DNA of 54,338 nt. Source: Lentisphaerota bacterium (GTDB lineage Bacteria > Verrucomicrobiota > Kiritimatiellia > UBA8416 > JAUUYL01). The first letter of the stretch is position 1, and each line of letters opens with the position of its first letter. The position numbers and the translations under genes are program-made. The notes below the pieces were generated by a model, which was not told the origin of the DNA, ran no database searches, and saw nothing but the letters and a program-made list of their open reading frames with translations. Of the stretch, positions 36,869 through 52,953 are shown one piece after another. The stretch covers positions 1-54,338 of the forward strand of contig JAUUYL010000007.1 in NCBI GenBank assembly GCA_030590485.1, written 5' to 3'.

Positions 36869-38185
<1,317 letters not shown>

Positions 38186-38420: not shown

Positions 38421-38861
38421 ATGAGAATATCGTCAAAAACTGATTATGCGCTTCGGACGGTGATAGATCTGGCTCTGCACGGGTCGGAGGGTGTTGTTCG
38501 GGCTGGTTCTATAGCTGAGAGGCAGAGTTTATCGAGGGATTATCTGGGGCAGATTCTTATGAGTTTGAAGGCGGCTGGTATGGTAAACAGTAAGAGGGGG
38601 TTATCTGGTGGGTATATGCTGGCGAAGGATCCTTCGGAGATAACATTGCTTTCGGTGATAGATCTGACTGACCCGTCATTGGTTTCTGTGCCTATGGAGG
38701 GTACGGCGGAAGTGGAGAATGTTGAGAAGAGTGTGGTGGTGGATATATGGAAGGAAGTCACGGGGCATGTGGCGGGGGAGCTTGGCGCTATTACGATTCA
38801 GGATATTTGCGATAGGATAGCGGAGAAGACGAGCGGTCGGGCGTCAGATTATGCGATATGA
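38421..38861 (+). CDS. Rrf2 family transcriptional regulator (CymR-like)
   Basis: The 146-residue protein has a winged helix-turn-helix: ISSKTDYALRTVIDLALHG, SIAERQSLSRDYLGQILMSL and GGYMLAKDPSEITLLSVI. There are no cysteines, so it does not hold an iron-sulfur cluster as IscR does. It resembles CymR-type sensors of sulfur supply. It stands between metY (divergent) and cysH (same strand) at the head of the sulfur island, so regulation of sulfur assimilation is the natural inference. Confidence 0.88.
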   Translation: MRISSKTDYALRTVIDLALHGSEGVVRAGSIAERQSLSRDYLGQILMSLKAAGMVNSKRGLSGGYMLAKDPSEITLLSVIDLTDPSLVSVPMEGTAEVENVEKSVVVDIWKEVTGHVAGELGAITIQDICDRIAEKTSGRASDYAI

Positions 38862-38864
38862 GAG

Positions 38865-38962
38865 AATTGATGATTGATTAATAATGAACGATGAATGGGA
38901 ACGAGCCGGTGGCTCGGGAATATCGAATATCGAATACTGAATGTCGAATATCGAAGGGAATA
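38865..38962 (+). repeat. GATGAAT and ATATCGA word repeats between rrf2 and cysH
   Basis: TTGATGATTGATTAATAATG (from 38866) is followed by GAATATCGAATATCGAATAC and TGAATGTCGAATATCGAAG, after which the cysH leader begins. Both word families are in direct orientation. Confidence 0.85.
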
Positions 38963-38968
38963 GTACGG

Positions 38969-39679
38969 ATGAATGATGTTGGTTATAAAGAGTTTGGGTA
39001 TGATGGGAATGGTGAGGCGGGAGATGTGCTTCGCTGGGCTTTGGAGAAATTTCATCCCAAGATAGCGATTGCCTGTAGCTTTCAGCATGCGGTGCTTATT
39101 GATATGGCTGTGCGGATAAATCCTGAGGTTAGGGTCTTTTCAATCGATACCGGACGTTTGCCGGAAGAGACATTTGAATGTGCAGCTGACATTGAGAATC
39201 ATTTTGGAATCAAAATAGAGTGGATTCTGCCAAAACAGGATTCGGTCGAGAAGATGATGCGCGAAAGCGGGCCGTTTTCCTTTAAGGAGAGTCTTGATGC
39301 GCGGCGCGGTTGTTGTGCTATTCGCAAGGTGGAGCCGTTGAACCGCATGTTGTCGGGTCTGGATGCATGGATAACTGGTGTGCGGAGTGATCAGAATGTG
39401 ACCAGGAAAGAGACGCGTAAGATCTTTCGGGATGATGCGCACGGCGACGTCATCAAAGTTAACCCATTGGTGGATTGGAATTACGACCAGATCAAGGATT
39501 ATGTAAAGGCGCGGAAGCTACCGTACAACAGCTTGTTTGAGAAGGGGTATTCGTCGATTGGCTGTGCCTGTTGCACGAGGGCTGTTGAGTCGGGTGAGGA
39601 TATAAGGGCAGGACGCTGGTGGTGGGAGAACCCGGAACATAAGGAATGCGGATTGCATGTCAGGAATTGGGATATATAG
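38969..39679 (+). CDS. cysH: Assimilatory APS/PAPS reductase CysH
   Basis: The protein has 236 residues from the ATG at 38969. The open frame upstream runs through ATATCGA repeats and is excluded. The nucleotide loop is IACSFQHAVLIDMA, and the two cysteine pairs of the [4Fe-4S] form are in RRGCCAIRKVEPL and IGCACCTRAVESG. The presence of both pairs indicates an APS-type reductase that makes sulfite from APS. It ends in GLH-type sequence. It opens the run of sulfur genes whose later members reduce sulfite and build thiocarboxylate. Confidence 0.94.
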   Translation: MNDVGYKEFGYDGNGEAGDVLRWALEKFHPKIAIACSFQHAVLIDMAVRINPEVRVFSIDTGRLPEETFECAADIENHFGIKIEWILPKQDSVEKMMRESGPFSFKESLDARRGCCAIRKVEPLNRMLSGLDAWITGVRSDQNVTRKETRKIFRDDAHGDVIKVNPLVDWNYDQIKDYVKARKLPYNSLFEKGYSSIGCACCTRAVESGEDIRAGRWWWENPEHKECGLHVRNWDI

Positions 39680-39797: not shown

Positions 39798-39818
39798 ATG
39801 ATAGGCTGTGGAATATGA
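39798..39818 (+). CDS. Possible upstream leader peptide MIGCGI overlapping metY
   Basis: ATG-ATA-GGC-TGT-GGA-ATA-TGA has AAGGTGAGAG directly upstream. Its TGA overlaps the metY ATG by ATGA, so ribosomes ending here could start metY. The peptide carries one cysteine, which would fit sensing of cysteine supply, but this is speculation and the sequence also resembles degenerate repeat words. Confidence 0.3.
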   Translation: MIGCGI

Positions 39819-41053
39819 AGATTGATACTAAGGTGATACATGGGGCGTATAAGCCGGATGGGGAGACTGGGGCGACGGTTGCGCCGTTGGTGATGAGCAC
39901 GTCGTTTACGCATGAATCGGCTGAGGATATTGAGGCGGTGTTTAATGGCAGGGCGCCTGGATATGTTTATTCGCGCATCAGCAATCCTACGATCATGGCC
40001 TGGGAGCGGCGTTTGACTGAGCTCGAGGGCGGTATGGCTACTATTGCCTGTGCGTCGGGGATGGCGGCGATCAGCACTTCTATTCTGGCGTTGGCTGGAG
40101 CGGGTGATGAGATCGTATCCGGCAATAGTCTTTTTGGCGGCACGTATTCTCTGTTTGCGCATACTCTTGCGAGGTATGGAATAAAGACTGTTTTTGTTGA
40201 ATCGACTGATGTGTCGGCTTATGCCAAGGCGATTACTGACAAGACGAAGGTTATTTTTGTGGAGACTATTGGAAACCCAAAGATGGACGTTCCTGATTTG
40301 GCTGCGATCGCGACGTTGGCAAAGGAGAATGGGATTGTGTTTGTAGTAGACAGCACTGTTACGACGCCAATTATGGTCAGGCCAAAGGAATTCGGGGCGG
40401 ATATAGTGGTTCATTCTTCGTCAAAGTTTATTAATGGTCATGGGAATGCTTTAGGGGGTGCTATTGTTGATTGCGGCACGTTCGATTGGTCGGGAGATCG
40501 TTATGAACATTTGCATGACTATCATGCGAAGGCGGGGAGTTTTGCGTTTATGGCGGCATTGAGGAATCAGTATTTCAGGGATATAGGAGCATGCATATCT
40601 CCATTTAATGCGTTTCTTACTAATATGAGTGTTGAGTCGTTGGCGGTCAGGATGGAGCGGCATTGCGATAACGCGCTTGAGTTGGCGGGGCGGCTTGATA
40701 GTGACAAGCGTGTTGAGCAGGTTCGATATCCGGGCTTGGCCGGGCATCCTGGTAATAAGGTTGCAGAGGCTCAATTTGACGGTATGTACGGAGCGGTTCT
40801 GGGTTTCAGGCTGGGGTCGAAGGAGCGATGTTTTCAGTTTATCAACGGCCTGAATCGAGTGCAGAACCTTGCCAATCTTGGTGATGCCAAGACGCTGGTG
40901 ATTCATCCGGCATCGACGATATGTCATGACCTGAGTGAAGCTGAGAGGCAGGCGGTTGGGGTGACGGATGATCTGGTGCGGATGTCGGTGGGGATTGAGA
41001 ATATAGAAGATATTTGGGAAGATGTTAATAATGGGCTGGATTCTTTGAAATAA
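39815..41053 (+). CDS. Second MetY-type sulfhydrylase, linked to the sulfur carrier
   Basis: The 412-residue protein is a PLP enzyme (ATVAPLVMSTSFTHESAEDI, GMATIACASGMAAISTSILA, VVHSSSKFINGHGNALGG, NLGDAKTLVIHPASTIC). It is shorter than and distinct from the MetY at 36869. It lies 23 bases before the sulfur carrier gene. In Wolinella a MetY of this kind accepts sulfur from a protein thiocarboxylate to make homocysteine. The same job is inferred here from context. It has a poor Shine-Dalgarno of its own and may be coupled to MIGCGI. Confidence 0.88.
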   Translation: MKIDTKVIHGAYKPDGETGATVAPLVMSTSFTHESAEDIEAVFNGRAPGYVYSRISNPTIMAWERRLTELEGGMATIACASGMAAISTSILALAGAGDEIVSGNSLFGGTYSLFAHTLARYGIKTVFVESTDVSAYAKAITDKTKVIFVETIGNPKMDVPDLAAIATLAKENGIVFVVDSTVTTPIMVRPKEFGADIVVHSSSKFINGHGNALGGAIVDCGTFDWSGDRYEHLHDYHAKAGSFAFMAALRNQYFRDIGACISPFNAFLTNMSVESLAVRMERHCDNALELAGRLDSDKRVEQVRYPGLAGHPGNKVAEAQFDGMYGAVLGFRLGSKERCFQFINGLNRVQNLANLGDAKTLVIHPASTICHDLSEAERQAVGVTDDLVRMSVGIENIEDIWEDVNNGLDSLK

Positions 41054-41076
41054 ACTACAGAAGATGGAGATTGAAA

Positions 41077-41298
41077 ATGGAATTGCAAATAAATGGTGAA
41101 GGTGTTGAGGTTGGTGATGCCATCTCGGTTTCAGAGTTGTTGAAGGTGCAGGAAGTGAAAATGCCTGATATGGTCAGTGTTGAACTGAATGGAGGCATAA
41201 TACAGCGTGATACGTTTGATACTACGGTGTTGGCAGATGGTGATAAGATAGAGTTTATGTATTTTATGGGTGGCGGGAGTAGGAGAAGTGCTGATTGA
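41077..41298 (+). CDS. ThiS-like sulfur carrier protein (HcyS-like) with C-terminal extension
   Basis: The 73-residue protein has the ubiquitin-like beta-grasp of ThiS/MoaD. The ATG at 41077 is preceded by GGAGATTGAAA. The functional end is YFMGGG (glycines 65-67). It is followed by SRRSAD, a six-residue tail, before a stop set in a GATGAATAATGAATGATG repeat. Carriers of this kind are activated only after a JAMM protease trims the tail to expose Gly-Gly, and a JAMM gene follows. It would carry sulfide as a thiocarboxylate to the MetY next door. Confidence 0.85.
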   Translation: MELQINGEGVEVGDAISVSELLKVQEVKMPDMVSVELNGGIIQRDTFDTTVLADGDKIEFMYFMGGGSRRSAD

Positions 41299-41338: not shown

Positions 41339-42145
41339 ATGAATTTGAGTGAAGAACAGATTGAGAGATATTCGAGGCATATTATATTGTCGGAGGTAGG
41401 GGGGAAGGGGCAGGAGAAGTTGCTGGCCAGCAAGGTATTGTTGGTTGGTGCGGGCGGTTTAGGTTCGCCTGTGGGTTTGTATCTTGCTGCTGCCGGCATT
41501 GGCACAATAGGTGTTATTGATGGTGATGTAGTTGATATGACAAATCTTCAGCGTCAGGTATTGCATAGCACTGCGGATCTGGGACGGCCGAAGGTTGAGT
41601 CTGCGAAGGCCACGATGACGGGCATCAATCCTGATGTGGAGGTGAAGACTTATTATGAACTGCTTAAGGCTGATAATGCTTTGGATATAATAAAGGACTA
41701 TGATTTTATCGTTGATGGGATGGATAACTTTGCAGGCAAGTTTCTGTTGGCGGATGCATGTCATATGGCGGGTAAAGCGTATTCACATGCTGGCATACTG
41801 CGTTTCGATGGTCAGACCATGACTGTTGATCCAGGGAAGAGCGCATGTTACAGGTGTGTATTCAATGCGCCGCCGCCGGCTGGGTCTGGGCCGACGTGTT
41901 CTCAGGCTGGTGTGTTGGGAGTGTTGCCTGGTGTGATTGGAAGTATTCAGGCAACTGAAGCGGTCAAGTATTTGCTGGGGATCGGCGATTGTCTTATGGA
42001 CAGGTTATTGGTCTACAATGCGCTTACCATGACATTTCGTAATGTGAATCTTAAGAAGAACAGCAGTTGTGCTTTGTGCGGTGAGAACCCGACGATAACG
42101 GAGCTTAAGGATGCGGAGCAGGCTGTGTGTGATTTGAAAGCGTGA
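41339..42145 (+). CDS. ThiF/MoeB-like E1 adenylyltransferase (HcyF-like)
   Basis: The 268-residue protein has the E1 fold: ERYSRHIILSEVGGKGQEKL, LLVGAGGLGSPVGLYLAAAG for ATP, DGDVVDMTNLQRQVLH, VDGMDNFAGKFLLADACH and two CxxC zinc knuckles (CYRC and CALC). It adenylates the C-terminal glycine of the sulfur carrier, after which sulfide forms the thiocarboxylate. It lies between carrier and protease, as in the Wolinella hcy locus. MoeB itself would be expected near moaD, which is not here. Confidence 0.9.
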   Translation: MNLSEEQIERYSRHIILSEVGGKGQEKLLASKVLLVGAGGLGSPVGLYLAAAGIGTIGVIDGDVVDMTNLQRQVLHSTADLGRPKVESAKATMTGINPDVEVKTYYELLKADNALDIIKDYDFIVDGMDNFAGKFLLADACHMAGKAYSHAGILRFDGQTMTVDPGKSACYRCVFNAPPPAGSGPTCSQAGVLGVLPGVIGSIQATEAVKYLLGIGDCLMDRLLVYNALTMTFRNVNLKKNSSCALCGENPTITELKDAEQAVCDLKA

Positions 42146-42229
42146 AGAGTGATGCGTGAAACGTGAAACGTGATGATTGTGGGCTGTGGGGAATTGATGA
42201 GTAATGAGTGATGAATGGGTTTAGGGATT
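42146..42229 (+). repeat. GTGAAACGTGAT and GATGAAT words before the JAMM gene
   Basis: GATGCGTGAAACGTGAAACG then TGATGATTGTGGGCTGTGGG and TGATGAGTAATGAGTGATGA. The JAMM gene may start in the repeat (ATG 42215) or, more likely, at 42230. Confidence 0.7.
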
Positions 42230-42637
42230 ATGATGAAGGTTGGGGAGGATATTTACGAGGAACTGGTTGAGGCGGCGCGGGAGGATGCTCCGCTTGAGGC
42301 CTGTGGGATTCTTGCTGGCGTTGATGGTGTTGTGGAGAAGTTTTACAGGATGACTAATTCTGATGCTTCGGCTGAGCATTACACTATGGTTCCGGAAGAG
42401 CAGTTTGCGGCGGTGAAGGATATGCGCGAATTGGGTCTGACAATGTTGGCGGTATGGCATAGTCATCCGGCGACGCCGGCAAGGATGTCTGAAGAGGACA
42501 TTAAATTGGCTTATATGCCTGAGACGATATATGCAATCTTGTCGCTGGAGAATCCTGCGGAGCCAGTGTTAAAGGGTTTTGAAGTGGTAGATGGGGAGGC
42601 GAATGAAGTTGAAGTGGAAACAGGAAATAGGCAATAG
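42230..42637 (+). CDS. JAMM/Mov34 metalloprotease (HcyD/Mec+-like)
   Basis: The protein has 135 residues from the ATG at 42230, with AGGG upstream. An upstream ATG at 42215 lies in a repeat. The zinc motif is WHSHPATPARMSEED, with the upstream glutamate in LEACGIL. This is the standard EX(n)HSHPX(n)SxxD. Small single-domain members trim C-terminal residues from sulfur carriers such as CysO and HcyS. The carrier at 41077 has such a tail, so the two are an inferred enzyme-substrate pair. Confidence 0.92.
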   Translation: MMKVGEDIYEELVEAAREDAPLEACGILAGVDGVVEKFYRMTNSDASAEHYTMVPEEQFAAVKDMRELGLTMLAVWHSHPATPARMSEEDIKLAYMPETIYAILSLENPAEPVLKGFEVVDGEANEVEVETGNRQ

Positions 42638-42852: not shown

Positions 42853-45117
42853 ATGAGTAAGAGTAAGTTTTATGAGTTGCCGGGGAATTTGGCTGAGGAT
42901 ATAGATGCGCATGAGAGTGATGTGAAGCGTTTTTTATCGGGTGATCTTGCGCCTGGTATATTTAAAGCCCGGCGTGTGCCGAGGGGAATATATGAGCAGA
43001 GGAAGGATGGAACATACATGATGCGTGTCAGGGTGGCTGGTGGAATGTTTACTGCTGAACAGGGGCGCAAGCTGGCGGATATTGGCGAGCAGTATGGGAA
43101 TCTTCATGTCACGACCAGGCAGGATGTGCAAATTCACAATGTCGATATAGCGGATAGTCCGGAATTGATGCGGCAATTGATGTCTGTCGGGTTGACGAGT
43201 AAAGGCGGCGGCGGCAACACGGTACGAAATGTTGCGGCATGTCCTTTCGCTGGAATATGTCCTTCGGAGGTATTTGATGTTGCACCGTATGCTTATGCGG
43301 TGACGGAATATCTTATCACGCTTGAAGGCAGTTATAATCTTCCTCGCAAATACAAGATAGCTTTCAGTGGTTGTGGCGCGGACTGTGCTCTGGCGCGTAT
43401 TAATGATCTGGGTTTTATAGCGAAAGAAAAGGATGGAAGGCCAGGTTTCGAGATGTATGGCGGCGGCGGAATGGGTGCGGTCTCTCGTCCTGGTGATCTG
43501 CTGGAGGACTGGATCTCGGCTGATGATGTAGTCAAGATATCGGAAGCGATGCGGCGTTTGTTTGACAGGACCGGTGACAGGCACAACAGGAGTAAGGCGC
43601 GTTTACGTTTTGTTTTCGAACGGCTTGGAGTGGAGGCGGTCAAGGATGAGTTGCAGAAGGAGCTTGATGGTCTTGATGGGGTTCCTGAATGCGCGGTGGA
43701 ATCTGTTATACGCAGCCCAGAGAAAGCCACGGTGCCCGATGAGTTTTCGGAGGGTGGCGTGAGTTTCTTTAAGCAGCATCAGGATGGTTTTGTTGCCATA
43801 CGGTTGCGTTTGCCAATGGGGTTTATTTCCTGTGCAGATTTCAGGCTCATAGCTGATGTGGCTGAAAAATACAGTGAAGAGAAGAGTCTGGTGACTACGC
43901 GCGGTCAGGATCTGCTTTTACGGTTCATAAATGAGGGCGATATAGGTGAAGTGGCGCAGGCTCTATCGGGATTGAGTGTGAATGTTTTGAAGCCGGGTGC
44001 GCTGGATCATTTTGTTGCCTGTGCTGGTGCGTCAACCTGTCGGTTGGGTTTATGTCTGGCGCGTGGTGCGGCTAGGGCTTCTGCTGAACATCTTGATGAA
44101 GTTGGACGTGATATGGACGGTGTAGATATCAATATCAGTGGATGTCCTAATGCATGTGGTCAGCATCCTGCGGCTTCAGTCGGGTTTTTTGGTGCGGCTA
44201 TGCGTGAGGCCAAGCGGCTTGTGCCTGCTTACAGGGTGGTTCTTGGCGCGAAGAACGATGAGGATGGAGTGAGGTTGAGTGAATCTGTAGGGATGCTTCC
44301 TGCGAGAGCCATGCCGGCTTTTATTGATGAGTTGACTGAGGATTATCACTCGGGCCGTGATAACGACGAGGGATTCTCGGCGTATTATGAGCGGCGCGGA
44401 AAAGAGTACTTTGCGGAAATGGTTGTCAGGCATAAGGATGTTCCTGCATATGAGGAGAATTCTGATTATTACAAGGACTGGGGTGTAGACGAAGACTTTT
44501 CATTGGCAGGACGTGGAGCGGGAGAATGTGGAGCTGGCGTGTTTGAGGTGGTCAGTGATGATATTGCTGCCGCGAAGAAAGCATTGGAATCGGGGGATTT
44601 GGATAAGGCGTTTCTCTGTTCGATAAGGGCGTTATTGATAACGCGTGGTGTGGATTCCAGCGATCCGGGTGAGATCCAGAAGGCATTCGAGGAGTATTTT
44701 GTCGGCACGGGTCTGGTAGGGGATGAATATGCGGTGGCCAGGGACGATTTGCAGAAAGGCAATGTGACAGGATTATTAGACAGGGTTGAGCTGCTGTATT
44801 CTTCGCTGGATGCGAATCTAAAGTTCAATTTGTCTGATGATAAGAAGGTAGATGTTTCGCCGGATGAAGGGGCTGATGTTGCTGTCGGAAAAGTTGAGGA
44901 GTATGACTTAAAAGGCGTGGGATGTCCCATGAACTTTGTGAAAGCCAAATTGAAGTTGGAAATGCTTGCGATAGGCGATACGCTGAGAGTGACGCTTGAT
45001 GATGGTGCTCCGGTTCAGAACGTTCCGGCCAGCTTCAAGAGTGAAGGGCAGGAAATCGTGGAAACTGTTGATTTGGGTGATGGACATTGGCGGGTATCTG
45101 TCAGAAAAATATGTTAG
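42853..45117 (+). CDS. Siroheme sulfite/nitrite-type reductase fused to a helical linker and a TusA domain
   Basis: The protein has 754 residues. Residues 1-545 form a complete siroheme reductase, with IYEQRKDGTYMMRVRVAGG, GNLHVTTRQDVQIHNVD and GNTVRNVAACPFAGI. The iron-sulfur/siroheme cysteines are C390, C396, C431 and C435 (CAGASTC and GCPNAC). Residues about 555-675 are helical (ALESGDLDKAFLCSIRALLI). Residues 680-754 are a TusA/SirA domain with C691 in GVGCPMNF, where most TusA have CPxP. It would reduce sulfite to sulfide and may hand sulfur on as a TusA-bound persulfide. The gene follows the JAMM gene after a repeat array. Confidence 0.92.
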   Translation: MSKSKFYELPGNLAEDIDAHESDVKRFLSGDLAPGIFKARRVPRGIYEQRKDGTYMMRVRVAGGMFTAEQGRKLADIGEQYGNLHVTTRQDVQIHNVDIADSPELMRQLMSVGLTSKGGGGNTVRNVAACPFAGICPSEVFDVAPYAYAVTEYLITLEGSYNLPRKYKIAFSGCGADCALARINDLGFIAKEKDGRPGFEMYGGGGMGAVSRPGDLLEDWISADDVVKISEAMRRLFDRTGDRHNRSKARLRFVFERLGVEAVKDELQKELDGLDGVPECAVESVIRSPEKATVPDEFSEGGVSFFKQHQDGFVAIRLRLPMGFISCADFRLIADVAEKYSEEKSLVTTRGQDLLLRFINEGDIGEVAQALSGLSVNVLKPGALDHFVACAGASTCRLGLCLARGAARASAEHLDEVGRDMDGVDINISGCPNACGQHPAASVGFFGAAMREAKRLVPAYRVVLGAKNDEDGVRLSESVGMLPARAMPAFIDELTEDYHSGRDNDEGFSAYYERRGKEYFAEMVVRHKDVPAYEENSDYYKDWGVDEDFSLAGRGAGECGAGVFEVVSDDIAAAKKALESGDLDKAFLCSIRALLITRGVDSSDPGEIQKAFEEYFVGTGLVGDEYAVARDDLQKGNVTGLLDRVELLYSSLDANLKFNLSDDKKVDVSPDEGADVAVGKVEEYDLKGVGCPMNFVKAKLKLEMLAIGDTLRVTLDDGAPVQNVPASFKSEGQEIVETVDLGDGHWRVSVRKIC

Positions 45118-45144
45118 AGTTGATGCGAGAAAAGGAGAACGTTG

Positions 45145-46089
45145 ATGAAATATTACAAAGATAATTCGGAATCTATAGGTAATACGCCATTGGTCAAGAT
45201 AAGTAAGTTGGCTGGTGATAAGGCGCTGGTTTTAGGGAAGGTGGAAGGTCGGAATCCTGGCTATTCTGTAAAGTGCAGAATTGGTGCCAACATGGTGTGG
45301 GATGCTGAAGAGCGTGGCGTTTTGAAGGCGGGGATGGAGATTGTTGAGCCTACGAGCGGTAATACCGGGATTGCACTCGCGTACGTTGGTGTGGCCAGAG
45401 GTTATAAGGTCCGGTTAACCATGCCAGATACAATGAGTATTGAGAGGCGCAAGATATTGAAGGCGCTTGGTGCGGATCTGGTTTTGACTGAAGGGGCCAA
45501 GGGGATGCCTGGTGCTATTGCCAAAGCTGAGGAGTTGGTTGCAGAGGATCCTGAAAAATACTTCATGCCGCAGCAGTTCAAGAATCCTGCAAACCCGGAT
45601 ATTCACGTTAAGACGACCGGGCCGGAGATATGGGATGCGACTGATGGGAAAATTGATGTGCTGGTATCGGGTGTTGGTACTGGCGGCACGATCACAGGTC
45701 TTTCGAGATATTTTAAAGAGGTGAAAGGTAAGGCTGTTCTTTCAGTGGCGGTGGAGCCGGAAAACAGTCCGGTTATTACGCAGGCGTTGGCTGGAGAGGA
45801 ATTGAAGCCGGGTCCGCATATGATTCAGGGGATAGGTGCAGGGTTTATACCGGATGTTCTGGATCTTTCCATGATTGATAGGGTGGAGCTGGTTAATAAT
45901 GATGAGGCTTTTGATTTTGCTCGTCGACTGACAAGTGAAGAGGGCATTCTGTCGGGTATTTCCAGTGGTGCGGCTGTTGCGGCGGCGGCGCGTATTGCGC
46001 AGGAAGCTGAGTTTGAGGGTAAGACTATTGTCGTTATACTGCCTGATTCCGGAGAGAGATACTTGTCTACTGCGTTGTTTTCTGAGTAG
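45145..46089 (+). CDS. cysK: Cysteine synthase (O-acetylserine sulfhydrylase)
   Basis: The protein has 314 residues from the ATG at 45145, which has AAAGGAG ahead of it. PLP features are [31 protein letters not shown] with the Schiff-base lysine, [14 protein letters not shown] and [17 protein letters not shown]. The ending [19 protein letters not shown] is typical for CysK. It forms cysteine from O-acetylserine and sulfide. It is the last gene of the sulfur run, 27 bases after the reductase-TusA fusion. Confidence 0.95.
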
Positions 46090-46846: not shown

Positions 46847-48208
46847 ATGAGGTCTAGAACTATAATAAGAATATTGATGTGTTTTGTTTTCGGCGTTCTT
46901 TTCGCCGGATGCGCATCGACATCCATGCCGGTGCCGAGGGCGTTGGGTGCTCAATACACTGCTGTTGGTCAGAAAGGCTGGCAGGACTCCGTGATGAAGA
47001 CCATTGAGCCGTCAGGTGAGCTCAACCTGAATCAGGCGCTTGCCCAGGCGCTTCTAAAGAATCCCGAGCTTATAGCTTTTTCGTATGATGTGCGCATCGC
47101 CGAAGCACGTATTCTGCAGGCAGGTGCGTTTCCTGATCCCACAATTCAGTTTGAGGTGGAGGAATATGATCACAGGGGAAATGGGATGGATGATGCAGAA
47201 GTATCCTATGCACTTGGTCAGGTTATAGAGTTGGGCGGGAAGCGGCATTGGCGAACAAAAGTTGCAATTGCCCAGGGTGCTCTTGCTGGATGGAGCTATG
47301 AAAGCAAGCGGCTTGAAGTGTTTTCAGAAACTGCGCGTCTTTTTATGGCTGTCATAACTGCCGAGAAGACGCTCGAGCTTACAGAGTCTACAGTGGATTT
47401 GGCGGCAAACACGTTTCGTGCCGTACAAGGCCGTGTGGAAGCAGGGAAAGAGCCGCCGTTTCAGGCGTCAAAAGCATCGGCAGAACTGGAGCTTACAAAA
47501 ATAGAGCAGGTCGATGCGAAGAATGCGCTCGAGCTGGCAAAACGAAGACTTGCCGCAATGTGGGGATCTGAGACGCCGCGTTTCAGTTCTGTCTCAGGTG
47601 ATATAGATAAAATAACACCTGTACCTTCGTTAGATATTTTGAGGGGCAAGCTTTCGCAGAACCCTAATCTGGCCAGATGGGATGACGAGGTGGCAATGCG
47701 TAAAGCTACTCTTGCGTCGGAGAAGGCAAAGCTTATTCCTGACTTGCAAGGTGTTGTCGGAGTTCAGACTTACGAAGAGGACGGCAGTGATGCATTGAAG
47801 TTTGGTGTTAAAGTAAATTTGCCGCTTTTTAGCCGAGCTCGTGGCGGTATTGTAGCTGCAGGCAGTAAGCTTGCCAAAGCTGAAGAGAATCGCAAGGCCG
47901 CCAAGATAACACTTGTGACTGATCTTGCTGCGGCTTATGCAGATCTTGCGACTTCGCACAGTAAAGTTATGGCTCTGAGAAAGAAGGTGATTCCGGCAAT
48001 GGAAGAATCGTTCAATGCGGCTCAAGAGGGATATCGTCAGGGAAAGTTCAATTTTATGGATGTATTGGATGCACAGCGCAGTCTGTACAAGACGAGAAAC
48101 GCTTCTCTCGGGGCGCTGTTAGCTTACCATGCGGCAGTTGCAGAAATACAGAGGATTACCGGAACAAGTATTGAAGAATTGAATAAAATACAAAAGGAGA
48201 CGAAATAA
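46847..48208 (+). CDS. Outer-membrane efflux channel, CzcC/TolC-like lipoprotein
   Basis: The 453-residue protein has a lipoprotein signal, LMCFVFGVLFAGCAS, with the lipobox cysteine at about residue 25. Coiled-coil-like repeats (LNLNQALAQALLKNPELIAF and a second copy of the motif) are typical of TolC-family channels. It forms the outer-membrane duct of the tripartite pump. Its TAA overlaps the ATG of the adaptor gene by one base, so the three pump genes are co-translated or closely linked. AAAGGAAA precedes the start. Confidence 0.92.
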   Translation: MRSRTIIRILMCFVFGVLFAGCASTSMPVPRALGAQYTAVGQKGWQDSVMKTIEPSGELNLNQALAQALLKNPELIAFSYDVRIAEARILQAGAFPDPTIQFEVEEYDHRGNGMDDAEVSYALGQVIELGGKRHWRTKVAIAQGALAGWSYESKRLEVFSETARLFMAVITAEKTLELTESTVDLAANTFRAVQGRVEAGKEPPFQASKASAELELTKIEQVDAKNALELAKRRLAAMWGSETPRFSSVSGDIDKITPVPSLDILRGKLSQNPNLARWDDEVAMRKATLASEKAKLIPDLQGVVGVQTYEEDGSDALKFGVKVNLPLFSRARGGIVAAGSKLAKAEENRKAAKITLVTDLAAAYADLATSHSKVMALRKKVIPAMEESFNAAQEGYRQGKFNFMDVLDAQRSLYKTRNASLGALLAYHAAVAEIQRITGTSIEELNKIQKETK

Positions 48209-49800
48209 TGAAACTGTTAAGAATTATAATTGCAGCATGCCTGTTTGGCTTTGCTGTTGTTTGTGTTGCTGTTGAGAAACAGGTGGAATGTGAAGATGAC
48301 TGTGCAAACTGCGAGACTTCGGGTAAGGATGCGGGACATGCCGATGAGGATGAGCATGAGGGACATGCGCATGGCAGTGAGGCACCGAAGCGAATAGAGG
48401 TCACCGCAAAACAGGTTAAACAGCGTGGCATTAAAACCGTGCGTGCTGTCAAAGGTTCGGTTCGTAAGAAGATACGCGTGCCCGGAGAGGTTAAGGTGAA
48501 CTCTGATCGAGTTGCGCATGTAGTTTCTCGTGCGGCGGGAATCGTCAGAAACGTGAGAGGCAAACTCGGTGATGCGGTAAGGCAGGGCGATATACTCGCG
48601 CTGGTTGAGAGTGAAGAATTCGCCGCAGCGAAACTGGATTTTTATGCCAAGGAAACGGAGGTGGGGTGCTGCGAGATCACGTTGCCTCGAGCCAAAGAGA
48701 TATACGAGAACGTAGCAAAGCTTATAGATCTGCTCGACAAGGGTGCTTCTGAAGATGACATCAAGAAGTTGGATGGAACCGAGATGGGCAGTTATCGAGG
48801 GCAGTTGCTCGTTGCTCATGCGGCTTACATATCCGCAAAGACGACATATGAACAGGAGTTGGCTCTTCGCGCCAAGAAGATCAGCAGTGTCAGGGAGATG
48901 CTTAACGCGGAAACGGTAATGAAACAGGCGCGCGCCAACTTTCAGGGTATTATGGATACCGCCCGCTACGAGACGTTGGTTCAATATTCCGAAGCACTGC
49001 AGGAACGGCAGCTGGCAGGATTCAATGCGGTGGCGGCAGAGAAGAAACTTCGCTTGAAAGGAGCGGATGACAAAATCATTAGAGAACTTCGTGCACTGGT
49101 TCCCAAGATAGATACCTTGAAGCCCTGTAAATGCAGCGATCCTGAATGTAAATCAGGTAAATTGCCTTTGCTGGGCGATGTGCTTGGTAATGATGCGGAG
49201 TTTGCTCTTTATGTTATGACGGCACCTATTGGCGGACGTCTGATAGCGAAGCACATTGTCATGGGTGAGTCAATTGACAGTTCGACAGAGGTGTTTACTA
49301 TTGCTGATCTTTCCTCGGTATGGGTCGATCTCGCTGTCAGTCAGGAAGATATATCCGCTGCCCGCGAGGGGTATCCTGTTGCGATAATTTTTCCTGACGG
49401 TGGAACAGCAAATGCGAAGATTAGTTTTGTGTCATCTGTAGTCGATTCGAAGACTCGCACGATTCTGGCGCGAGCGGTCTTGGATAACGGTAAAGGCCGG
49501 TTTCGGCCGGGAACGTTCATCGAGGCTGTGATTCGCGTGCCATCAAATGCGGAGGTAATTGTGGTTCCGAAAAGAGCGGTGCAGCTGATCAATGATTATC
49601 CATGCGTGTTTGTGTGGGATAAGGGCGGCTTCGAGGTGAGGGAAGTTGAATTGGGCATCTCAAATGAAAATCAGGTCGAAATCCTCAGTGGTTTGAATGA
49701 GGGTGAAATTCTCGCAGGTGTAAATGCGTTTCATCTGAAAGCCGAATTTATTAAATCTGCGGCGGGCGACCTTGGCGATCATCATGGGCATGATCATTAG
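48208..49800 (+). CDS. RND efflux periplasmic adaptor, CzcB-like, with His-rich ends
   Basis: The 530-residue protein starts with a signal peptide and a metal-binding stretch (CEDDCANCETSGKDAGHADE, EHEGHAHG), and ends in DHHGHDH. The membrane-fusion core has RAAGIVRNVRGKLGDAVRQG for the lipoyl half and GRLIAKHIVMGESIDSSTEV further on. A KPCKCSDPECKSGK loop adds cysteines. It joins the inner-membrane pump to the outer channel and may deliver metal to it. Confidence 0.92.
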   Translation: MKLLRIIIAACLFGFAVVCVAVEKQVECEDDCANCETSGKDAGHADEDEHEGHAHGSEAPKRIEVTAKQVKQRGIKTVRAVKGSVRKKIRVPGEVKVNSDRVAHVVSRAAGIVRNVRGKLGDAVRQGDILALVESEEFAAAKLDFYAKETEVGCCEITLPRAKEIYENVAKLIDLLDKGASEDDIKKLDGTEMGSYRGQLLVAHAAYISAKTTYEQELALRAKKISSVREMLNAETVMKQARANFQGIMDTARYETLVQYSEALQERQLAGFNAVAAEKKLRLKGADDKIIRELRALVPKIDTLKPCKCSDPECKSGKLPLLGDVLGNDAEFALYVMTAPIGGRLIAKHIVMGESIDSSTEVFTIADLSSVWVDLAVSQEDISAAREGYPVAIIFPDGGTANAKISFVSSVVDSKTRTILARAVLDNGKGRFRPGTFIEAVIRVPSNAEVIVVPKRAVQLINDYPCVFVWDKGGFEVREVELGISNENQVEILSGLNEGEILAGVNAFHLKAEFIKSAAGDLGDHHGHDH

Positions 49801-49801
49801 A

Positions 49802-49835
49802 GGATTGATGAATGATTAGTGATGAATAATGAATG
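49802..49835 (+). repeat. GATGAAT word repeat between adaptor and pump genes
   Basis: GATTGATGAATGATTAGTGA and TGAATAATGAATGATGAGAC. ACGAGGATTACGAT follows and carries the Shine-Dalgarno GAGGATT of the pump gene. Confidence 0.8.
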
Positions 49836-49863
49836 ATGAGACACGAGAGACGAGGATTACGAT

Positions 49864-52800
49864 ATGATTGAAAAACTTATACATATAGGATTGAAACACA
49901 AGTTGCTTTCTGTGGTGACTACCATTGCTGTGGTGGCGCTTGGTGCTTATTCGTTGAGCAACTTGTCGATAGATGCTTTCCCTGATATCAGTCCAAACCT
50001 TGTTCAGGTTTTCGTGGAGGTTGATGGGATGGCGCCTGAAGAGGTTGAGCAACTTGTCACAAGGCCAACTGAGACTGCCATGCGCAGTATACCCGGGGTT
50101 GAGAAAATACGTTCGCTGTCATCACTTGGCTTGTCTACGGTGAACATCTATTTTGAAGATGATGTGGATATTTATTTGGCAAGGCAGTTGGTTTCTGAGC
50201 GGTTGAAAACGGCAGAGGAGTCTATTCCTGCAGGCGTCGATATGCCGCATGGTCTTGAGATGGGTCCGCTGGCAAGTGGCATGGGCAAGATTCTGGCCTA
50301 TTATATTGATTCAGACAGTGATGATATCACTGAGTTGCGTACGGTTCATGAATGGGTGATTAAACGTGGCATCGAAACTGTACCTGGCGTGGCGAAGGTG
50401 ATCAGTCAGGGTGGCTATATTCGTCAGTACGAAGTTGAGTTGTCGCCTGAGAGGTTGCTGTCTCATAATCTCAGTGTTACGGATGTTCATGAGGCTATCG
50501 GGCTGAACAATGCTAATGTCGGTGCTGGTATTATTACGCGCGGCAGCGAGGAACTTATTGTCCGAACACTTGGGCGTGTGGGGACTGTTGAAGAGATTGC
50601 CAATACAATTGTCAAGAGTGTCGATGGTAAGCCGGTGATGGTAAAGGATGTAGGGGCCGTTAGTATTGGTCAGGCGTTTCGTCGTGGTGTTGCGATTCTT
50701 AACGGAAAGCGCGAAGTTGTTTTGGGCGGAGTATACAAGCTGCACCGGGCAAATTCCTTTGAAGTGATAGGACGGCTGCATGAGAGAATCGATGAGATCA
50801 ATGAAACTCTTCCTCCCGGCATGGAGATTGTGCCCTATTATGATCAGGCTGATCTTGTGGGCAGCAGTGTCCGGGCTGTTCGCAATGCGTTACTGCTTGG
50901 ACTTGTAATGGTCTCGGTGGTGGCGTTTCTATTTCTGGGCAATTTTCGTAATGCATTGATAATGGTCTACTCGTTACCGTTTGCAATAATGTTCGGTATT
51001 GTGCTTATGGAGCGCAACGGTATTCCGGGGGATTTGATATCGCTTGGTGGGATGGCTATTGCGCTTGGTATGATTATTGATGCGACGATCATTATGGTTG
51101 AGAAGTTGCAGACAGCTGCTGGCGATCCTCGAGATAAGGAAGCCAGCGAGAGAGCTATTTTGTCTGCGGCGCAGGAAGTCGGCCGGCCGATAGTGTTCGC
51201 CGTGGCGGTGATAGCGACTGTTTTTCTGCCTATTTTTACGCTAGGCGAGATAGAGGGGAAGATGTTCAGGCCGTTGGCGTTTGCTGTTGTGTCGACTATG
51301 CTGGGGTCTTTAATCTATGCATTGTTGATTGCGCCTATATTTTTCCGTCTATTGCATCGGACTGACAAGAAACGCGCGGGTCACGCGCCGGGCAGAATTC
51401 TGCATCGTTTGCTGGAACGTTACGAAATTATGCTTGAAAAGACTTTAAAGCGTCCGTTCAGGCTTATTTTGATTCTGTTGGTGCTTCTGGTGTTGGGGTC
51501 GGCGGGATTCCTTAGGCTGGGTCGTGAATTTGTGCCTACCTTACAGGAAGGCACTATTAACTGTTATGCCTATATGAATCCCAATGTTTCGTTAGATGAG
51601 ATACGGAATGTCTGCTCGGATATTGCGAAGATAGCGGTCAAGATACCGGAGATAAAAGACGTCATATCGGATATTGGTTATGGTGAAGTAGGTCCGCATA
51701 TGCATCACACTAACTACGGATGTATAACAATTACGCTGAAGCGGCGTTCTTTTTGGAAACGGGAAAAGAGCCAGAAGGAAGTGGTGGCGGTTCTTGATGA
51801 AAAGCTGAAAGGGATGCTGGGTGTGACGATTGGTTTTTCTCAGCCGATTGCGCATGAGGTTGACGGGCTTATCGCGGGTTCTGGTGCTCAGGTTGTTATG
51901 AAGGTTTTTGGTGATGACATGAGTAAGCTTAAGGCTATTGCAGGAGAGGTTGAGCATCTTGTGTCGGGAGTTAAAGGTGTGGCTGATCTCAGGGTTGAAC
52001 AGACCGATGGTCAGACGCAGATACAGGTGATTCTCAATCCGATAAAGCTTTCCCGATACGGGCTCAATAAGCATGAGGTTCAAACGGTGGTGCATCAGGC
52101 GCTTACAGGCGAGGTGGTTGGCGAGGTTTTTGAGGGAGAGATGACTTCGAGAATACTTGTCAGGCTCGACAAGCGCTATCAGGAAGATCGTGAGGAGCTT
52201 GGAAGTCTGCTGATACTTACTCCGTCGGGTTCTCATGTGCCTCTGAGTAGTTTGGCTGACATCAAGACATTGACCGGGCTCAGACAGATAAGCCGTGAGA
52301 ATACACAGCGTTATATATCGGTAAACTGCAATGTGCGTGGGCGCGATGTAGGTTCCTTTGTGAGTGAGGCGCAAGCTGTGGTCAGCGAGGCTGAAATTTT
52401 ACCACCTGGATACAGGGTCGTATGGGGCGGACAGTTTGAGCTGCAGAAGGCGGCGGGGCGCAGGCTGGCTGTTGTGATGCCTCTGACATTACTGTTGGTG
52501 TTGGCGATGTTGTACGGGCTGTTTGGTTCTGTACGAGTTGCTGTTTTGATTATGCTGAATGTTCCCTTGGCGTTGGTTGGCGGTGTGCTGGCGCTCGCCG
52601 TGTTTGGTGAGAATGTGAGTATACCTTCGTCTATCGGGTTTATTGCGCTGTTTGGTATTGCGTTGACCGATGGTGTTGTTCTGGTGTCGCGATTCGAGAA
52701 GTTGAGGAAGGATGGTACGATGCTCATGGATGCTGTTATGTCCGGCTGCCGTTCTAAATTCAGGCCTGTTCTAATGACTACCGTGACAACAGCACTTGGG

Positions 52801-52953
52801 TTGTTGCCCTTGATTGTCATGTCGGGAACTGGAAGCGAGATACAGCGGCCATTGGCTATTGTTGTTGTGTTCGGTCTTGTGACGTCAACGGCGGTTACGC
52901 TGTTTGTTCTTCCGCCCGCATATGTCTGGATGGAGAAGAAGTGGGGAGAATAA
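49864..52953 (+). CDS. Heavy-metal RND efflux pump (CzcA/CusA family)
   Basis: The 1029-residue protein is of full RND length, with two six-helix halves and porter domains. SIDAFPDISPNLVQVFVEVD and EEVEQLVTRPTETAMRSIPG open it. The TM4 segment GGMAIALGMIIDATIIMVEK holds D406. It lacks the DFG...DG form of classic CzcA and looks closer to the AxAxG...D form of copper/silver pumps such as CusA. The metal is therefore more likely monovalent, which agrees with a CsoR-type repressor downstream. It works with the two upstream proteins to expel metal. Confidence 0.94.
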   Translation: MIEKLIHIGLKHKLLSVVTTIAVVALGAYSLSNLSIDAFPDISPNLVQVFVEVDGMAPEEVEQLVTRPTETAMRSIPGVEKIRSLSSLGLSTVNIYFEDDVDIYLARQLVSERLKTAEESIPAGVDMPHGLEMGPLASGMGKILAYYIDSDSDDITELRTVHEWVIKRGIETVPGVAKVISQGGYIRQYEVELSPERLLSHNLSVTDVHEAIGLNNANVGAGIITRGSEELIVRTLGRVGTVEEIANTIVKSVDGKPVMVKDVGAVSIGQAFRRGVAILNGKREVVLGGVYKLHRANSFEVIGRLHERIDEINETLPPGMEIVPYYDQADLVGSSVRAVRNALLLGLVMVSVVAFLFLGNFRNALIMVYSLPFAIMFGIVLMERNGIPGDLISLGGMAIALGMIIDATIIMVEKLQTAAGDPRDKEASERAILSAAQEVGRPIVFAVAVIATVFLPIFTLGEIEGKMFRPLAFAVVSTMLGSLIYALLIAPIFFRLLHRTDKKRAGHAPGRILHRLLERYEIMLEKTLKRPFRLILILLVLLVLGSAGFLRLGREFVPTLQEGTINCYAYMNPNVSLDEIRNVCSDIAKIAVKIPEIKDVISDIGYGEVGPHMHHTNYGCITITLKRRSFWKREKSQKEVVAVLDEKLKGMLGVTIGFSQPIAHEVDGLIAGSGAQVVMKVFGDDMSKLKAIAGEVEHLVSGVKGVADLRVEQTDGQTQIQVILNPIKLSRYGLNKHEVQTVVHQALTGEVVGEVFEGEMTSRILVRLDKRYQEDREELGSLLILTPSGSHVPLSSLADIKTLTGLRQISRENTQRYISVNCNVRGRDVGSFVSEAQAVVSEAEILPPGYRVVWGGQFELQKAAGRRLAVVMPLTLLLVLAMLYGLFGSVRVAVLIMLNVPLALVGGVLALAVFGENVSIPSSIGFIALFGIALTDGVVLVSRFEKLRKDGTMLMDAVMSGCRSKFRPVLMTTVTTALGLLPLIVMSGTGSEIQRPLAIVVVFGLVTSTAVTLFVLPPAYVWMEKKWGE

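Follow-up and report, generated by a model that had tools for sequence, protein, structure and literature searches.

The window, a stretch of 54,338 nucleotides from a contig of a Lentisphaerota bacterium (JAUUYL010000007.1), encodes a siroheme sulfite reductase (Sir) that continues within one reading frame of 754 codons into a HEPN-like helical domain and then a TusA domain (Table 1). The fusion is genuine, occurs widely and belongs to a pathway that is already known. By homology, the operon around it is of the HcyS/HcyF/HcyD/MetY type, a protein-thiocarboxylate pathway that is proved in Wolinella succinogenes and hence a system already known. We assign a probability of about 0.6 to the reading that the fusion protein is the sulfite reductase of such a pathway to homocysteine and methionine (probably also to cysteine), in which C691 of the TusA domain would relay sulfur from the siroheme site as a persulfide to the ThiS-like carrier. 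Relative to the openly licensed literature that we searched, what is new is the recognition of Sir-HEPN-TusA as an architecture shared by a whole family, of the helical segment as HEPN-like and of a cluster motif retained in the first half of the reductase; earlier reports may exist.

Table 1. Features of the sir operon and of the encoded fusion protein (window coordinates)
Feature	Position	Strand	Basis or remark
Rrf2-family regulator	38421..38861	+	profile/ORF
CysH-type (P)APS reductase, source of sulfite	38891..39679	+	profile/ORF
MetY-like O-acetylhomoserine sulfhydrylase	39815..41053	+	40.6% identical to MetY homologue of the W. succinogenes locus
ThiS-like sulfur carrier, HcyS-like, ending YFMGGG-SRRSAD, needs trimming	41071..41298	+	48% identical to W. 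succinogenes carrier (YFMGGGA end)
ThiF/MoeB-type E1 without rhodanese domain, HcyF-like	41339..42145	+	57% identical to W. succinogenes protein
JAMM/JAB metalloprotease, HcyD-like	42215..42637	+	44% identical to W. succinogenes protein
Sir-HEPN-TusA fusion gene, 754 aa	42853..45117	+	single intact ORF, ATG start
Siroheme sulfite reductase module, residues 1-540, two pseudo-symmetric halves	42853..44472	+	Pfam and Foldseek
Sulfite-pocket residues R89, R125, K166, K168	43117..43356	+	own alignment to E. coli SiR R83, R153, K215, K217
Half-1 cluster motif C130-X5-C136 ... C174-X3-C178 (extra set)	43240..43386	+	alignment
Half-2 cluster motif C390-X5-C396 ... C431-X3-C435 (usual catalytic set)	44020..44157	+	alignment
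HEPN-like helical domain, residues 553-652	44509..44808	+	model, Foldseek, profile comparison
Flexible linker, residues 653-680 (disordered core 654-678)	44809..44892	+	pLDDT about 30-40
TusA domain, residues 681-754	44893..45114	+	Pfam and Foldseek
CysK cysteine synthase	45142..46089	+	TIGR01139, 452 bits, cut-off 351

Domain architecture of the fusion protein

The reductase module contains two stretches each of the Pfam families NIR_SIR (4.3e-45) and NIR_SIR_ferr (4.5e-32). Foldseek comparison of this module with the PDB returned plant nitrite reductases, NirA from Mycobacterium and the sulfite reductases of E. coli and maize. The C-terminal tail matches Pfam TusA (PF01206) over residues 683-752 (2e-16, 60 bits against a cut-off of 28.6) and superimposes on E. 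coli TusA from the IscS-TusA complex (3lvj) with an rmsd of 1.6 Å over 71 columns. The AlphaFold model of the whole protein has a mean pLDDT of 82.5. Ten further genomes of the class encode full-length relatives with 41-59% identity, and one more relative lies on a cut contig. In a collection with one genome per species, the HEPN-TusA part has at least 519 relatives. Since these relatives recur in such numbers, the fusion is far beyond what chance could produce. The initial annotation had described a sulfite reductase joined to a helical module and a C-terminal TusA; the intact frame, the Pfam domains and the relatives in other genomes confirm this description. Sequence comparison places the same fusion in hundreds of bacteria, including W. 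succinogenes. We asked whether a TusA-free split gene in one relative (L011, G037:C10) represents a naturally unfused form. There, the reductase frame runs on across the TusA sequence, which lies in a different frame and has the motif CPTN, and the HEPN-like domain is for the most part absent; a deletion, a frameshift or an assembly error is the more likely explanation.

The helical segment, previously left unassigned, matched no Pfam family in a direct search with the window sequence alone, and 6 of 26 members of the fusion family matched Pfam HEPN (PF05168), all below the cut-off. The segment is modeled well (pLDDT 92); Foldseek ranks the HEPN protein AF0298 first (probability 0.91, E 0.21) and places two further bacterial HEPN or HEPN-type entries among the first six. 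When the family profile was compared with that of MNT-type HEPN proteins encoded by relatives, the match exceeded reversed and shuffled controls and was not significant (P = 0.028). The assignment is carried by sulfite reductases of Bacteroidota (about 700 residues), which have a terminal helical domain and no TusA. All 13 of these proteins examined match Pfam HEPN (best E 1.6e-8; the cut-off is 22 bits, and the first member reaches 31.9), and their helical domain aligns with that of the window family in profile-profile comparison with a probability of 98 and an E value of 1.5e-13. Through this link, together with the Foldseek result, we classify the segment as HEPN-like. Like the window protein, the Bacteroidota proteins combine a reductase with this helical domain, starting at GEC; unlike it, they have no TusA, and the sequences read contain no half-1 cluster cysteines.

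To count conserved residues, we aligned the window protein with 80 relatives (81 fusions). The RX4-6H nuclease motif of HEPN domains matches in only 24 of them and hence is not conserved; judged from these residues, RNA cutting by the HEPN-like domain is not expected. At the start of the domain, a cysteine in the motif GECGAG (C559, window 44527-44529) is near-invariant (80/81, with one gap) and possibly serves as a second sulfur-handling thiol. The same cysteine is also kept in the Bacteroidota proteins without TusA.

Operon context and the Wolinella succinogenes locus

The genes are ordered Rrf2, CysH, MetY, ThiS, ThiF, JAMM, Sir-HEPN-TusA and CysK. As in HcyS-type systems, the carrier extends past its GG (YFMGGG-SRRSAD), and E1, JAMM and MetY are encoded in the same cluster as orthologues of the W. 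succinogenes proteins (57%, 44% and 41% identity). Carriers at other loci mostly consist of YFMGGG followed by a variable tail. The operon MetY scores below the cut-off of its family and may be a carrier-dependent version; a second, canonical MetY is encoded at 36869-38170 on the minus strand, divergent from the operon MetY and facing away from the operon. Downstream, at 46847-52953, open reading frames for an outer-membrane factor, a membrane-fusion protein and an RND pump resemble a heavy-metal efflux system.

A family search around a Helicobacter locus led to a genome that encodes a Sir-HEPN-TusA protein of 764 residues. The asparaginase from this genome is identical at 330 of 330 residues to PDB entry 5k4g, which, like 1wsa, we take to be the W. 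succinogenes enzyme. Sequence identity thus designates the 764-residue fusion as the Sir of the W. succinogenes locus. It adjoins genes for a JAMM protein, an E1 and a carrier ending in YFMGGGA, with CysH/CysD-like, CysN-like and MetY genes close by. It shares with the window protein the three-domain architecture, the CPMNFVK motif, the neighbors and 36.6% identity over the whole protein, and differs in having no half-1 cluster cysteines. The window operon in turn adds CysK and encodes a carrier with a longer tail (SRRSAD instead of A). With its C-terminal alanine, the W. succinogenes carrier presumably corresponds to the HcyS-Ala described by Krishnamoorthy and Begley. A separate TusA relative, a YedF-like protein, is encoded near the W. 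succinogenes sir locus (L151:5882-6472, minus strand).

Later papers cite the study by Krishnamoorthy and Begley (2011) for the pathway by which W. succinogenes makes methionine with a protein thiocarboxylate. Earlier, Iyer, Burroughs and Aravind (2006; PMC1779556) had described an operon class, including that of W. succinogenes, in which the E1 is always without rhodanese and SirA/TusA is always present, and had predicted that SirA acts like a rhodanese in these operons. Their neighborhood 4e contains, as does the window, ThiS, JAB, a rhodanese-less E1, SirA, PAPS reductase, sulfite reductase and O-acetylhomoserine sulfhydrylase; SirA is given there as a separate component, and the passages on this neighborhood do not mention a Sir-HEPN-TusA fusion. 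The same paper notes that the sulfite reductase of some actinobacteria carries ThiS itself as a C-terminal fusion. The sulfur relay that the initial annotation proposed is therefore close to a published prediction.

Among the 80 best-scoring loci of the at least 519 (one genome per species), thiS-thiF-jamm-sir is a repeated gene order, found in lineages that range from Kiritimatiellia to Campylobacterota and Halanaerobiales. For counting carrier genes, we used the 55 of these 80 loci that have at least 3 kb of upstream sequence, a sample that leans towards close relatives. By script, ThiS, ThiF and JAMM are all upstream in 39 of the 55 loci and at least one of them in 45. Reading the maps by hand raised the number of loci with carrier genes to 47, by adding L077, where the trio is upstream and the script had picked another reductase gene, and L096, where ThiF and JAMM are downstream. 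In five of the eight genomes without nearby carrier genes, a ThiS and a JAB gene are encoded elsewhere as a pair, no more than about 2.3 kb apart; the search of these eight genomes found no such pair in three (L058, L064 and L091), a point against the proposed pathway role. The proposed tie between the fusion and carrier genes thus holds, and the fusion is not common without them. At two loci, a second frame that matches the Sir profile is no more than about 10 kb away from the fusion gene (L045:12438-15224 and L077:16514-19231).

Proposed sulfur relay through C691 and its alternatives

C691 is part of a CPMN motif (window 44923-44934). The initial annotation was right about these residues and took CPMN for a local deviation from the CPxP of TusA proteins; instead, the whole family has CPxN (81/81). 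C691, P692 and N694 are invariant in all 81 fusions and the remainder of the TusA domain is variable. With the cysteine invariant and the asparagine fixed as well, we can eliminate the possibility that CPMN marks a dead TusA; the exchange of CPxP for CPxN could reflect a changed role. No other TusA was found in the source genome.

In the proposed relay, CysH would supply sulfite, and the siroheme-[4Fe-4S] site, composed of a pocket from half 1 and a cluster from half 2, would reduce it. C691 of the TusA domain, tethered by the HEPN-like domain and the floppy linker, would accept the sulfur as a persulfide. TusA would then offer this sulfur to the ThiF-adenylated C-terminal glycine of the ThiS-like carrier, whose tail JAMM would trim, and MetY and CysK would consume the thiocarboxylate or sulfide. 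TusA would thereby replace the rhodanese that is missing from the E1. A TusA domain on a disordered linker of about 25 residues, as modeled, is what we would expect of a swinging carrier. The fusion itself, the invariance of C691, the operon membership and the orthology to the W. succinogenes Sir are directly observed; beyond them, we infer a persulfide on C691, its delivery to ThiS and a transfer at the S(0) level rather than as sulfide.

A thiol and sulfide do not form a persulfide without an oxidant. The relay therefore needs sulfur at the S(0) level from the siroheme site, of the kind that DsrAB hands to DsrC, or a persulfide formed in another way. For this reason, the original suggestion of a capture of sulfide as persulfide is chemically impossible unless an oxidant takes part; the species transferred would have to be S(0)-level sulfur that stays behind on the siroheme, unless the enzyme just releases sulfide. 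According to a 2026 study (PMC13188885), four assimilatory enzymes release S(0) as their direct product and cysteine synthases prefer glutathione persulfide. Whether the product that leaves assimilatory sulfite reductase is sulfide or S(0) is in dispute (PMC13188885), and an enzyme with a built-in sulfur acceptor and a known operon end product makes this dispute directly testable.

The strongest competitor of the relay, to which we give a minor though substantial share of the probability, is that TusA only serves as a docking module or scaffold that brings ThiF and ThiS close, while free sulfide attacks the ThiS acyl-adenylate or feeds CysK and MetY directly. In W. succinogenes, Krishnamoorthy and Begley are said to have identified bisulfide from Sir as the nucleophile that attacks the carrier acyl-adenylate. 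Since the Sir of that organism is the same fusion, release of sulfide is conceivable, and TusA may not be obligatory. The position of CysK immediately downstream and catalytic residues that are those of an ordinary assimilatory SiR also agree with a docking role. A pure scaffold, however, need not preserve C691, P692 and N694 in 81 of 81 proteins while the domain otherwise varies. This invariance, the lack of another TusA in the genome and the rhodanese-less E1 lead us to favor the relay over a scaffold.

It is improbable that the TusA domain instead receives its sulfur from a cysteine desulfurase, in the way that IscS loads TusA in E. coli, for sulfuration of tRNA or cofactors, with the fusion to Sir being regulatory. 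The source genome contains two good matches to desulfurase-type proteins, which could act as alternative loaders; this TusA is the only one in the genome, and its fold matches the TusA of the IscS-TusA complex. Against this, the gene accompanies sulfate-assimilation and ThiS/JAMM genes, not tRNA or Moco genes.

Sulfite pocket and two cluster motifs

The four pocket residues of half 1 are invariant in every readable fusion, and so the protein has the R/R/K/K set of assimilatory SiR. The lysine at K168 (77 of 77 readable fusions) is the sulfite-reductase state by alignment, as nitrite reductase has asparagine at this position (PRKW-N in 3b0h). Nitrite as the substrate is thus very unlikely in spite of the best PDB and Foldseek matches being nitrite reductases, given this lysine and an operon devoted to sulfur assimilation. 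The half-2 counterparts of the pocket residues are not conserved among the fusions, which argues for a single catalytic site with its pocket in half 1 and its cluster in half 2.

The four cluster cysteines noted initially (C390, C396, C431 and C435) are all there; the total is eight, and the set in half 1 had been overlooked. In the alignment, the half-2 CX5C...CX3C set is kept in 80-81 of 81 fusions. The half-1 set is complete in 44 of the 72 fusions with readable positions (the window protein and 43 others) and wholly missing in 28; in the remainder of the 81 it is partial or lost to contig ends. The solved nitrite reductases aligned to the window protein have no cysteines at the half-1 positions. 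E. coli CysI, plant SiR and NiR and Mycobacterium NirA share with the window protein the two-half fold, the half-2 cluster and the sulfite pocket; the window protein differs from them by the extra half-1 motif and by its HEPN-like and TusA domains. A structural paper from 2023 (PMC10229431) traces assimilatory enzymes back to a duplication and fusion, with one site only being kept. The window protein departs from this pattern of one siroheme-[4Fe-4S] site, as its half-1 motif is complete. If it binds a cluster, the retained motif would be a living sample of the intermediate predicted by this duplication-fusion history, in a purifiable protein. Since the pocket opposite the putative half-1 cluster is not conserved, this cluster would probably have a structural role or relay electrons.

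A second cluster set is not exclusive to the fusion, because both CX5C/CX3C sets are also present in 12 nitrite/sulfite reductases from the same class that are not fused. In a quick tree, which has no settled root and an outgroup row (L017) on a very long branch, the dual-motif state is strongly clustered. It is common to the non-fused enzymes and to most fusions from PVC, Actinomycetota, Armatimonadota and Chloroflexota, and is missing from those of Campylobacterota, Bacteroidota and Halanaerobiales. Retention of the half-1 motif with several losses is the simplest reading of this distribution.

By analogy, DsrAB with DsrC also combines two cluster-bearing halves with a sulfur-accepting partner. 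One could speculate that the fusion is a one-chain assimilatory counterpart, in which a Sir with two cluster sites, the state before loss, stops at S(0), its own TusA cysteine takes the persulfide and free sulfide is never an intermediate. We consider this doubtful. DsrAB forms a heterodimer and its motif is CXnCCX3C, and DsrC is a separate protein unrelated to TusA; the window protein is a single chain with the assimilatory motif and TusA in place of DsrC.

The non-fused dual-motif enzymes include those at L015, L018-L022, L024, L025, L027, L028 and L030. Several non-fused reductases of this kind adjoin open reading frames with GltD-like cysteine patterns (IPCQ..CP ... RVC.RPCE), possibly the electron donor.
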